From Pseudomonas fortuita (lineage in GTDB: Bacteria > Pseudomonadota > Gammaproteobacteria > Pseudomonadales > Pseudomonadaceae), in the NCBI RefSeq assembly GCF_026898135.2, contig NZ_CP114035.2:62001-126000 (forward strand): a stretch of DNA of 64,000 bases, written 5' to 3'. The notes below the pieces were generated by a model. The model ran no database searches, was not told the DNA's origin, and saw only the letters and a program-made list of their open reading frames with translations. This document shows positions 3,564-48,550 of the stretch, one piece after another (positions within the stretch are counted from its first letter, which is position 1; each line of letters starts with the position of its first letter). The translations under genes and the position numbers were made by a program.

Positions 3564-3722
3564 GGGGGCGCTTTGCGCCCCTTTCGCGGGACAAGCCCGC
3601 TCCCACATGGGATCGCGGTCACCTGAACGAGCGGCCTTGTGTCGCGATGTTCAGCGCAGCCCACGCTATCTCTGTGGGAGCGGGCTTGCCCCGCGAATGG
3701 GCTGCAAAGCAGCCCCGGCAAT
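3564..3722. repeat. REP pair with flanking GC hairpins, including a terminator
   Basis: Two REP elements in inverted orientation (GCGGGACAAGCCCGCTCCCACA near 3585-3607 and its reverse near 3672-3696) fill the gap between two convergent genes. At the left edge, GGGGCGC-TTT-GCGCCCC followed by TTT (3565-3584) can act as an intrinsic terminator for the acyltransferase gene. At the right edge, GGGCTGCAAAGCAGCCC forms a matching hairpin in front of the TPR gene's stop codon. Confidence 0.85.
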
Positions 3723-3723
3723 C

Positions 3724-4032
3724 TCAGGCCTTGTTGAGCTTCTTCAGGAATACGGCCATCTCCTTCTCGGCCTGCTTGTCCCCATGGGCCTGCGCCGCCA
3801 CGATCCCGTCTTCCCAGGCCCTGCGCGCTGCCGCCAGGTCACCCTGCAACTGATGCGCTTTGCCCAGTAACTTCCACGCTGCGGAGTACTTGGGATCCTG
3901 CTCCACACACCGTGCCAGGTGCACCGCCGCTTCAGCGCCATTGCCTTCATCCAGCCAGGCCTTCCCCAGCCCGAACCGCAGCAATGGGTTATCCACACCC
4001 TTGGCCAGCATCTTCTCCAGCGATTCGCGCAT
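3724..4032 (-). CDS. Small tetratricopeptide-repeat protein
   Basis: This is a 102-residue protein made almost wholly of TPR-like helix pairs. FGLGKAWLDEGNGAEAAVHLARCVEQDPKY and the following AAWKLLGKAHQLQGDLAAARRAWEDGI match the TPR pattern of small residues at positions 8 and 20. It has no signal peptide, so it is probably a cytoplasmic adaptor. It lies 11 bp downstream of trkA and is probably in the same transcript. The partner is unknown. A DnaA-box match (3989-3997) lies within the gene. Confidence 0.85.
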   Translation of the reverse strand: MRESLEKMLAKGVDNPLLRFGLGKAWLDEGNGAEAAVHLARCVEQDPKYSAAWKLLGKAHQLQGDLAAARRAWEDGIVAAQAHGDKQAEKEMAVFLKKLNKA

Positions 4033-4043
4033 GCCCTCTTCTC

Positions 4044-45134: not shown

Positions 45135-46012
45135 GCGCACGGCGGGCCAGTTGGCGCGATTACCTGGAGCTGACCAAGCCCAAGGTGGTGGTTCTGATGC
45201 TGATCACCTCGCTGGCAGGCATGTTCCTGGCCACGCGGGCGGGTGTCGGCTGGAGCGTGCTGCTGTTCGGCAACCTGGGCATCGGCCTGTGCGCTGGCGC
45301 TGCGGCGGTGGTCAACCATGTGGTGGACCGGCGCATCGATGCGCTGATGGCCCGTACCCACAAGCGGCCGCTGGCCCAAGGCCGGGTCGAACCGCTACCG
45401 GCGTTGCTGTTCGCTCTGGCGCTGGCGCTGCTGGGCATGGCCCTGCTGCTGGTGTTCACCAACGCCCTCACTGCCTGGCTGACCCTGGCTTCGCTGCTGG
45501 GTTATGCGGTGCTCTACACCGGCTTTCTCAAACGGGCCACGCCACAGAACATCGTCATTGGCGGCCTGGCCGGCGCCGCCCCGCCGCTGCTCGGCTGGGT
45601 GGCGGTAAGCGGCCATGTCAGCGCTGAACCCTTGCTGCTGGTGCTGATCATCTTCGCCTGGACCCCGCCGCACTTCTGGGCGCTGGCCATTCACCGCAAG
45701 GAAGAATACGCCAAGGCCGATATCCCGATGCTGCCGGTGACCCACGGGGAGCGCTACACCAAGCTGCATATCCTGCTGTACACCCTGATACTGCTGGCGG
45801 TGAGCCTGCTGCCGTATGCCATCCACATGAGCGGTTTGCTGTACCTGGCCTCTGCCCTGGCGTTGGGCCTGCGCTTCCTGCAATGGGCCTGGGTGCTGTA
45901 CCGTGGCAGCCGGCCGCACGCGGCGATCGGTACCTTCAAGTACTCTATTGGCTACCTGTTCGCGCTGTTCATCGCGTTGCTCCTCGACCACTACTTGTTG
46001 CTGAACCTATGA
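45119..46012 (+). CDS. ctaB: Protoheme IX farnesyltransferase (heme O synthase)
   Basis: This enzyme adds a farnesyl group to heme B to form heme O, the substrate of CtaA. The protein has 297 residues from GTG 45119 (MATLLSARRASWRDYLELTKPKVV), with GAGGA upstream. It is a UbiA-superfamily protein with Asp-rich motifs NHVVDRRIDALMARTHKRPL and the second segment WALAIHRKEEYAKADIPMLP, and about eight membrane helices. Its stop overlaps the sco start as ATGA. The name cyoE is used for the same family. Confidence 0.95.
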   Translation: MATLLSARRASWRDYLELTKPKVVVLMLITSLAGMFLATRAGVGWSVLLFGNLGIGLCAGAAAVVNHVVDRRIDALMARTHKRPLAQGRVEPLPALLFALALALLGMALLLVFTNALTAWLTLASLLGYAVLYTGFLKRATPQNIVIGGLAGAAPPLLGWVAVSGHVSAEPLLLVLIIFAWTPPHFWALAIHRKEEYAKADIPMLPVTHGERYTKLHILLYTLILLAVSLLPYAIHMSGLLYLASALALGLRFLQWAWVLYRGSRPHAAIGTFKYSIGYLFALFIALLLDHYLLLNL

Positions 46013-46641
46013 CCCGAACCCAGAAAACCGTCTTCATCCTCGTCGCCCTGGTCGCGTTGATCCTGGGCCTTACCGTCAACAAGGTGCTCAATGGCCGCGA
46101 CCAGGCCAACCCCGCCGAGCTGATCGATGCCGGCATCATCCTGCTGCCGCAGAGCCGCAGCGTGGCCGACGTGACCATGACCAACCAGGACGGCCAGCCC
46201 GTGCAGCTGGATGACCTGAAAGGCAAATGGTCGCTGTTGTTCTTCGGCTACACCTACTGCCCGGACATCTGCCCGACCACTCTGGCCCAGTTGCGCCAAG
46301 TGAAGAGCGAGCTGCCCAAGGAAGCCGTCGACCGGCTGCAGGTGGTGCTGGTGAGCGTGGACCCGAACCGCGATACGCCGAACCAGCTGAAGCAGTACCT
46401 GGGCTATTTCGACAAGGACTTTGTCGGGGTGGCGGGGTCGATCGAAGATACCCAGAAGCTGGCCAATGCCTTGAGCATTCCGTTCATCCCGGCCGATACC
46501 AGCAAGCCGGGGTACACCGTGGACCACAGCGGCAACCTGGCGGTTGTCGGGCCGGATGGGCGTCAGCGTGGGTTCATTCGGGCGCCCTTCAACAACCAGA
46601 AGCTGGTGGCGCAGTTGCCTGGGCTTGTGAAGCGGGATTGA
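46009..46641 (+). CDS. SCO1/SenC-family copper chaperone
   Basis: This is a 210-residue inner-membrane-anchored thioredoxin-like protein that delivers copper to the CuA centre of subunit II. One N-terminal helix (VFILVALVALILGLTVNKVL) is followed by the copper motif CPDIC (C84, C88) and a distal histidine in YTVDHSGNL. It is the last gene of the cox operon. Its 3' end (46562-46641) is the left boundary of the four-unit tandem array, so three further copies of its last 26 codons lie downstream. Confidence 0.93.
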   Translation: MTRTQKTVFILVALVALILGLTVNKVLNGRDQANPAELIDAGIILLPQSRSVADVTMTNQDGQPVQLDDLKGKWSLLFFGYTYCPDICPTTLAQLRQVKSELPKEAVDRLQVVLVSVDPNRDTPNQLKQYLGYFDKDFVGVAGSIEDTQKLANALSIPFIPADTSKPGYTVDHSGNLAVVGPDGRQRGFIRAPFNNQKLVAQLPGLVKRD

Positions 46642-46770
46642 GATTTAGGGCCTGCTGCACAGGCCTTTCGCGGCGCAAGGCCGCTCCCCACATGGATCGG
46701 CGTACGCCTTACTTTATGGGAGCGGCCTTGTGCCGCGAAAGGGCCGCAAAGCGGCCCCGGGGATGTTGGA

Positions 46771-46978
46771 TCAGAACGCCGGAACCACAGCGCCCTTGTA
46801 CTTCTCGATGATGAACTGCTTCACCTCTGGCGAGTGCAGTGCAGCCGCCAGTTTTTTCATGTCTTCCGAGTCCTTGTTGTCCGGGCGGGCAACCAGGAGT
46901 CAGCGTGGGTTCATTCGGGCGCCCTTCAACAACCAGAAGCTGGTGGCGCAGTTGCCTGGGCTTGTGAAGCGGGATTGA
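46771..46978. pseudogene. Chimeric gene fragments: metQ tail (minus) joined to sco tail (plus), junction 1
   Basis: 46771-46898 is an intact copy of the last 128 bp of metQ on the minus strand, with no start or upstream gene. 46899-46978 is a copy of the sco end on the plus strand, with its stop. By chance the plus-strand frame of the antisense metQ part joins the sco frame, giving an 82-codon open frame from 46730. I do not consider it a real gene. Confidence 0.85.
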
Positions 46979-47107
46979 GATTTAGGGCCTGCTGCACAGG
47001 CCTTTCGCGGCGCAAGGCCGCTCCCCACATGGATCGGCGTACGCCTTACTTTATGGGAGCGGCCTTGTGCCGCGAAAGGGCCGCAAAGCGGCCCCGGGGA
47101 TGTTGGA

Positions 47108-47315
47108 TCAGAACGCCGGAACCACAGCGCCCTTGTACTTCTCGATGATGAACTGCTTCACCTCTGGCGAGTGCAGTGCAGCCGCCAGTTTTTTCATGTC
47201 TTCCGAGTCCTTGTTGTCCGGGCGGGCAACCAGGAGTCAGCGTGGGTTCATTCGGGCGCCCTTCAACAACCAGAAGCTGGTGGCGCAGTTGCCTGGGCTT
47301 GTGAAGCGGGATTGA
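47108..47315. pseudogene. Chimeric gene fragments, junction 2
   Basis: Second metQ-tail/sco-tail fusion with the same junction as the first. The metQ tail (47108-47235) is intact, and the sco tail is 47236-47315. The 82-codon chimeric frame (from 47067) is repeated exactly. Confidence 0.85.
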
Positions 47316-47443
47316 GATTTAGGGCCTGCTGCACAGGCCTTTCGCGGCACAAGGCCGCTCCCACATGGATCGGCGTACGCCTTACTTGGTGGGAGCGGCC
47401 TTGTGCCGCGAAAGGGCCGCAAAGCGGCCCCGGGGATGTTGGA

Positions 47444-47651
47444 TCAGAACGCCGGAACAACAGCGCCCTTGTACTTCTCGATGATGAACTGCTTCACCTC
47501 TGGCGAGTGCAGCGCAGCCGCCAGTTTCTTCATGTCGTCCGAGTCCTAGTTGTCCGGGCGGGCAGCCAGGCGTCAGCGTGGATTCATTCGTGCGCCGTTC
47601 AACAACCAGAAGCTGGTGGCGCAGTTGCCTGGGCTTGTGAAGCGGGATTGA
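47444..47651. pseudogene. Chimeric gene fragments, junction 3 (decayed)
   Basis: Third fusion. The metQ tail (47444-47571) has acquired substitutions, including one that turns an AAG codon into TAG in the metQ frame (CTAG at about 47547), so it could not encode a MetQ end. The sco tail (47572-47651) differs from the functional one by three substitutions (GGGTTC to GGATTC, GGGCGC to GTGCGC, CCCTTC to CCGTTC). Confidence 0.85.
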
Positions 47652-47779
47652 GATTTAGGGCCTGCTGCGCAGGCCTTTCGCGGCGCAAGGCCGCTCCCAC
47701 ATGGATCGGCGTACGCCTTACTTGGTGGGAGCGGCCTTGTGCCGCGAAAGGGCCGCAAAGCGGCCCCGGGGATGTTGGA

Positions 47780-48550
47780 TCAGAACGCCGGAACCACAGC
47801 GCCCTTGTACTTCTCGATGATGAACTGCTTCACCTCTGGCGAGTGCAGCGCAGCCGCCAGTTTTTTCATGTCTTCCGAGTCCTTGTTGTCCGGGCGGGCA
47901 ACCAGGATGTTCACGTACGGCGAGTCGCTGCCTTCGATGGCCAGGGCGTCTTTTTCCGGGTTCAGCTTGGCTTCCAGCGCGTAGTTGGTGTTGATCAAGG
48001 CGGCATCGACTTGGGTCAGCACACGCGGGATGGTGGCGGCTTCCAGCTCACGGAACTTGATGCTTTTCGGGTTTTCGGCAACATCCTTCACGGTGGACAG
48101 GATGTTCTTGTTGTCCTTGAGCTTGATCACACCGGCCTTGTCCAGCAGCAGCAGGGCGCGGCCGCCGTTGGTGGCGTCGTTGGGGATGACCACGGTGGCG
48201 CCGGAGGACAGCTCGTCCAGCTTCTTGATCTTGGTCGAATACACCCCCAGCGGCTCGATGTGCACGCCGGCCACGCTGACCAGTTGGGTGCCCTTGGCCT
48301 TGTTGAACTCATCCAGGTACGGCTGGTGCTGGAAGAAGTTGGCGTCCAGGCGCTTTTCGGCAACCTGTACGTTCGGCTGGACGTAGTCGGTGAATTCCTT
48401 GACCTTCAGATCAACGCCTTCTTTGTCGAGTTGCGGTTTGACGAAGTTGAGGATTTCGGCATGCGGCACCGGGGTGGCGGCAACGGTCAGGGTATCGGCG
48501 TGGGCCGAGAAGGCCGCAACAGCGGCAGCAACAGCAAGCAGCTTCTTCAT
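47780..48550 (-). CDS. metQ: Methionine ABC transporter substrate-binding protein
   Basis: This is a periplasmic D/L-methionine-binding protein (NlpA/MetQ family) of 256 residues. The signal peptide MKKLLAVAAAVAAFSAHADTL lacks a lipobox, so it is probably soluble rather than a lipoprotein as in E. coli. The family core PHAEILNFVKPQLDKEGVDLKVKEFTDYVQPNVQVAEKRLDANFFQHQPYL is complete. It is the last gene of metNIQ on the minus strand, convergent with sco. Its 3' 128 bp is repeated three more times in the adjacent array. Several metQ-like genes usually occur in pseudomonads, so the exact substrate is inferred. Confidence 0.92.
   Translation of the reverse strand: MKKLLAVAAAVAAFSAHADTLTVAATPVPHAEILNFVKPQLDKEGVDLKVKEFTDYVQPNVQVAEKRLDANFFQHQPYLDEFNKAKGTQLVSVAGVHIEPLGVYSTKIKKLDELSSGATVVIPNDATNGGRALLLLDKAGVIKLKDNKNILSTVKDVAENPKSIKFRELEAATIPRVLTQVDAALINTNYALEAKLNPEKDALAIEGSDSPYVNILVARPDNKDSEDMKKLAAALHSPEVKQFIIEKYKGAVVPAF

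Follow-up and report, generated by a model that had tools for sequence, protein, structure and literature searches.

A four-unit tandem array with inverted REP pairs between the facing genes sco and metQ of Pseudomonas fortuita

Structure of the sco-metQ array

Between the facing genes sco (+ strand) and metQ (- strand) of Pseudomonas fortuita, in the 64,000-nucleotide stretch of the genome analyzed here (the window; five-digit positions count from its first letter, and those of six or seven digits belong to the whole genome), lies a tandem array that was recognized by Tandem Repeats Finder as one repeat at 46562-47907 (period 336, 4.0 copies, 97% matches, score 2559). Its four units of 337, 337, 336 and 336 bp follow one another head to tail over 1346 bp, and all of them show the same order of contents: the final 80 bases of sco, a spacer containing an inverted pair of repetitive extragenic palindromic (REP) sequences, i.e. 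a REPIN, and the last 128 bases of metQ on the opposite strand. Based on open reading frames (ORFs) and Pfam matches, both facing genes are whole. The array is known from the assembled sequence, in which the source genome forms one contig of 6.31 Mb. Four head-to-tail units of these lengths, intact outer genes and three chimeras of metQ tail and sco tail had been proposed by a sequence-only reading, and were confirmed by Tandem Repeats Finder, the unit lengths, the ORFs, Pfam and the location of the joints; the four-unit array between intact sco and metQ is real. The features are as follows, tails of the intact genes being called live and the additional ones dead.

46009..46641, + strand: sco (SCO1/SenC family), intact, with an ATG start codon at 46009; its final 80 bases open unit 1 (ORF, Pfam, start codon in sequence)
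46562..46898, + strand: unit 1, 337 bp; made up of the live sco tail, the REPIN spacer and a dead metQ tail (Tandem Repeats Finder, unit alignment)
46666..46740, no strand: REPIN hairpin of unit 1 (DNA fold, z -6.0)
46899..47235, + strand: unit 2, 337 bp; same sequence as unit 1 (0 differences), sco and metQ tails both dead
47003..47077, no strand: REPIN of unit 2 (position transferred from the identical unit 1)
47236..47571, + strand: unit 3, 336 bp; mosaic, its dead metQ tail containing one stop and two missense changes (unit comparison)
47340..47413, no strand: REPIN of unit 3 (position transferred from unit 4 through the alignment)
47572..47907, + strand: unit 4, 336 bp; dead sco tail with ancestral bases, live metQ tail (comparison with units and relatives)
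47676..47749, no strand: REPIN hairpin of unit 4 (DNA fold, z -8.5)
47780..48550, - strand: metQ (NlpA lipoprotein family), intact; its final 128 bases close unit 4 (ORF, Pfam)

A 460-aa ORF at 47171-48550 (+) and a tested 82-aa chimeric ORF were rejected as spurious because neither has a Pfam match.

The units meet in three chimeric joints, at 46898/46899, 47235/47236 and 47571/47572. At these, ...CCAGG(A) of metQ is fused to (C)GTCAG of sco, with the metQ base A at two joints and the sco base C at one, and the units abut directly without extra bases. These breakpoints had been named correctly from the sequence, together with their small overlap: the joined ends have 0-2 bases in common, at most GG, which is too little for homologous exchange. 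Since both joined ends lie within gene tails, both outer genes were kept whole.

The REPINs of units 1 and 4, i.e. two of the four copies, were folded as single-stranded DNA. The unit 4 copy reached -53.1 kcal/mol, its shuffles averaging -28.8 (sd 2.9), and the unit 1 copy reached -48.0 kcal/mol, and for both of them 0 of 200 shuffles were as good as the real fold. Two inverted REPs forming a long hairpin, as in REPINs, were thus recognized in the two folded copies, and the REP pair previously claimed for the unit is supported. The convergent-gene terminators that had been claimed along with it are not, because no intrinsic terminator (a stem followed by a T run) was found within the array, the sole match of the scan being inside metQ at 47929-47948. 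No Rfam family matched the array at the gathering score. Below that score, mir-306 appeared on both strands at 47332-47421, which is a chance match to the REPIN hairpin.

Relatives and the ages of the units

Comparison with related genomes, which the sequence-only reading had suggested as a check, revealed that in 28 of 28 relatives possessing both tails (29 loci fetched; collections of one genome per species) the sco tail and the metQ tail each occur once; the segment corresponding to the unit measures 265-418 bp there. The 29th locus (L038) has no sco nearby. The single copy is the ancestral state. Among 80 named loci, which overlap with the unnamed ones and were counted separately, the sco end is contained in 54, of which 53 show each tail once. 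By MetQ, Pseudomonas sp. CM27 and P. putida NBRC 14671 are the nearest named relatives, and their 98% identity places the source genome in the P. putida group.

In Pseudomonas sp. UFMG81 (L065), the metQ tail is doubled over 209 bp at 3585-4001 of the locus, with N at the joint; this is probably a scaffolding error in the public record, and the locus was set aside on that account. In Pseudomonas sp. 10-1B (L045), a 96-bp REPIN repeat of 2.4 copies (3803-4034) stands at the contig end of the sco-metQ junction, with sco outside the locus, and is perhaps an independent cluster at the same junction. A Tandem Repeats Finder row with a period of 654 bp was obtained for L085 (named loci, period at least 40).

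A screen with the sco tail across the genus matched 386 of 398 genomes, including the source genome. It is a weak screen, with two candidates scored per genome, and the known array appeared in it as 2 of its 4 copies; the 14 other genomes with two matches comprised 13 with short unrelated matches and one with a contig-end piece (G286), and no array was seen among them. The junction pattern gave 0 matches in the genome contigs of other species (a search from which the source genome was perhaps left out), and a plasmid search gave none. Among the titles listed in our literature search, none names the sco-metQ locus, and we do not claim that it is absent from print.

Units 1 and 2 show 0 differences. 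Between units 1 and 4 there are 8 differing columns (7/336 when only substitutions are counted), and between unit 3 and any other unit there are 11. Units 1 and 4 are separated by 21-22/336 substitutions from the relative G265 (L012) and by 29-32/330 from G217 (L010). Under a molecular clock, and leaving conversion aside, the age of the first duplication would be about one third of that of the split from G265. The dead metQ tail of unit 3 reads LAARPDN*DSDD (asterisk, stop), the live one being LVARPDNKDSED, and a stop together with missense changes is expected in a tail without constraint. The dead sco tail of unit 4 retains bases that have been lost from the live sco. Because units 3 and 4 have differences of their own, a plain assembly error is argued against, in favor of an old array with a recent extra copy. 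In short, part of the array is old, and unit 2 was copied from unit 1 recently.

The polarity of derived bases was taken from the three nearest relatives (L010, L011 and L012), which agree with one another at all 13 tabulated sites. Derived bases are common to units 1-3 at sites 20, 26 and 98, to units 3 and 4 at sites 154 and 279, and to units 1, 2 and 4 at sites 114 and 294. No single rooted tree fits this polarity, and so mixing of the units by recombination or conversion seems the simplest reading of the alignment. Site 26 is G in 28/28 relatives; weaker sites in the same 28 are 98 (A in 8), 20 (G in 12), 114 (G in 15) and 279 (C in 15), and the spacer columns align poorly with distant relatives.

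REP sequences and other arrays in the genome

The REPIN of the array has 84 matches in the same genome, counting itself and both orientations (40 of 503 first-look candidates were scored). A survey of 2.064 Mb, about a third of the genome (the window and a further 100 stretches of 20 kb each), contained 404 REP-core matches, and REP cores were recognized in 147 of 1068 intergenic regions defined by crude gene calls. The copies are thus many, dispersed and mainly intergenic, as REPINs are. Among the 40 scored candidates, the full unit exists only at the sco-metQ locus; the other matches are up to 141 bp long and mostly cover the REPIN. A mobile element repeated at unrelated loci was rejected on this account. 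One match, at 6045608-6045736, corresponds to the metQ tail (77%) and is probably a paralogue.

Tandem Repeats Finder gave 15 rows with a period of at least 60 in the 2.064 Mb. Seven of them (183-204 kb and 909-919 kb) were classed as coding repeats and left out, since they lie inside giant open frames: open over at least 1299 aa in L128, over the whole 6666 aa of L129 and over 6625 aa of L158. The frames of L129 (186001-206000) and L158 (900001-920000), of more than 6600 aa each, contain long repeats of 300-1989 bp.

REP cores are present in seven of the eight remaining non-coding arrays (period at least 60), the sco-metQ array and the six listed here.

783361-783948: 298 bp x2, REP cores; central REPIN and tails of facing ORFs
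5219066-5219617: 276 bp x2, REP cores; central REPIN and tails of facing ORFs
6021838-6022183: 116 bp x3, REP cores; tail of one ORF copied
2283184-2283403: 73 bp, REP cores; mostly REP region and spacer repeated
2380186-2380580: 167 bp, REP cores; mostly REP region and spacer repeated
6182724-6182912: 92 bp, REP cores; mostly REP region and spacer repeated

The REP-free eighth array, at 735621-736018, is a tandem-doubled tRNA-Pro/tRNA-Lys pair with a period of 204. By comparison, a REP core is expected in 8-16% of random unit-length segments overlapping intergenic DNA, a figure that depends on crude gene calls (the sco-metQ locus itself was miscalled). In convergent spacers, REP occurs in 62 of 245, and even at this rate of 25% the chance of finding it in at least seven of eight arrays is about 4e-4. 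The involvement of REPs that had been suggested for one locus therefore holds as a link across the non-coding arrays of the genome, and the breaks at REPs that were part of the same suggestion remain putative, as do polymerase stalling at the array and present-day variation of its copy number.

The units differ at 4/276 positions in the 276-bp array and at 5/212 in the 298-bp array; the facing-gene tails in these two arrays were read from ORFs alone, and the joint of the latter has about nine extra bases, as counted by eye. Ten relatives were inspected for each. The 276-bp array is single-copy in five of them, as judged from a single stretch that aligns with both units, its REPIN-bearing middle has no match in four, and in G289 its two sides lie at different contig ends. 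The 298-bp array is single-copy in nine (G081 included), and its middle is missing from G368. The re-aligned relative loci numbered five for the former and six for the latter.

Origin of the array

Short-junction tandem duplications arise head to tail with almost no homology at the joint, are then amplified by recombination, and usually span whole genes under dosage selection. The sco-metQ array is similar in its head-to-tail order, its joint almost without homology and its single-copy ancestor, but no complete gene is duplicated in it.

In P. fluorescens SBW25, 16 ordered clusters consisting of tandem, near-identical REPINs with flanks were reported, the largest of which contains four REPINs and one REP in more than 700 bp (Bertels and Rainey 2011, PMC3116915). 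The legend of Figure S7 of that paper describes units of f1-REPIN-f2, usually with a short unrepeated stretch between them. The clusters were taken to indicate a second cluster-forming mechanism, and functional roles were suggested; cluster-type arrangements were located mostly in P. syringae and P. fluorescens, P. putida was assigned two REP classes, and sequencing reads were consistent with REPIN excision (PMC3116915). The sco-metQ array likewise consists of tandem near-identical REPINs with flanks. Its units, unlike those of SBW25, have no stretch between them, which is not excluding in view of the word "usually"; the nine or so extra bases of the 298-bp array resemble the short stretch of SBW25. 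The flanks in the 1346 bp of the sco-metQ array extend into the coding sequence at the ends of the two convergent genes, and the passages on SBW25 are silent on gene tails. As far as those passages and the sequence go, the array fits an ordered REPIN cluster, a kind already described. In E. coli, a REP and an inverted REP form bacterial interspersed mosaic elements (BIMEs), often in consecutive tandem copies (PMC8266576). The sco-metQ array is like them in this respect, but its unit is three to four times the length of the REPIN and includes gene tails.

We favor, with a probability of about 0.68, an ordered REPIN cluster that arose by a nearly homology-free duplication at the REPIN and was followed by recombination between the units. 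The starting point would be the inverted REP pair in the spacer of the convergent genes. A 336-bp segment, with the REPIN inside and the gene tails at its ends, would have been duplicated head to tail at ends with 0-2 common bases, either by template switching or by joining after a break at the hairpin, both of which fit better than homologous exchange. The hairpin may have triggered this first duplication, presumably by way of an enzyme. The resulting long direct repeats would then permit unequal recombination and gene conversion, altering the copy number and mixing the units. The array shows no sign of function, and is by default regarded as a neutral by-product.

Several observations weigh against this origin. 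The mosaic consists of only seven sites, some of which vary in wider relatives too. Because REP is so frequent in convergent spacers, part of the association between REPs and arrays may be due to location. The repeat is largely the REP region in four of the seven REP arrays, so that only three independently show flanks copied on both sides. Finally, a 400-kb sample of the relative G217 contains 71 REP cores and 0 arrays with a period of at least 60; about 1.4 arrays would be expected there at the rate of the source genome, and thus their absence is not decisive.

A random short-junction tandem duplication at a harmless site, with the REPIN as a bystander common in convergent spacers, would explain the joint with nearly no common bases, the REP content of convergent spacers and the empty G217 sample; it is nevertheless unlikely, since REP cores in seven of eight non-coding arrays exceed even the convergent-spacer rate. 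Far less probable is an assembly error, in which one or more units would be an artifact of joining reads across the repeat. The identity of units 1 and 2 would agree with such an error, as would the similar-looking duplication in UFMG81, and the arguments that clear the array as a whole do not cover this pair. However, units 3 and 4 have distinct substitutions, including the stop codon, the genome is one contig, and at least three units (1 or 2, 3 and 4) can hardly be accounted for as duplicates of a single unit. Maintenance by selection, for example of a multiple hairpin keeping the convergent transcript ends apart or protecting them, seems just as improbable: direct repeats are easily lost, so a divergence between units 1 and 4 of about one third of that to G265 suggests long-lived repeats, and roles have been suggested for such clusters (PMC3116915), but the array has no terminator-like T tract and no Rfam match at the gathering score, and the junction is single-copy in all 28 relatives with both tails.

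The locus offers a series of ordered steps, from the single copy of the relatives through a near-homology-free joint and old, diverged units to a fresh identical copy. Considered with the six other arrays with REP cores in the surveyed third of the genome, it gives a testable basis to the idea of REPINs as seeds of small duplications, which, if true, bears on the growth of intergenic spacers, on strain typing and on assembly errors. A wider and tentative proposal, which we hold at somewhat less than even, is that REPINs are duplication hot spots, whose hairpins would provoke breaks or template switches that copy about 100-340 bp around them; each lineage would thereby build up REPIN-centered arrays of its own, particularly at junctions of convergent genes, where a gene tail can be duplicated with nothing lost. 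In that case, REPIN populations would not only copy themselves but also remodel the regions around the 3' ends of genes.

As to the machinery, both a REP-associated tyrosine transposase (RAYT) route and one by end joining are conceivable, since Y1_Tnp (four matches) and Ku (two matches) genes are present in the same genome. E. coli TnpAREP cuts single-stranded REP DNA adjoining its structure (PMC8266576). One RAYT-like Y1_Tnp match (671375-671689) has as a neighbor, at a distance of about 100 bp, a REPIN match (671791-671882) that is 86% identical to the REPIN of the array. The two Ku-domain genes, of 281 aa each, were found at 2554722-2555273 and 2620106-2620657.
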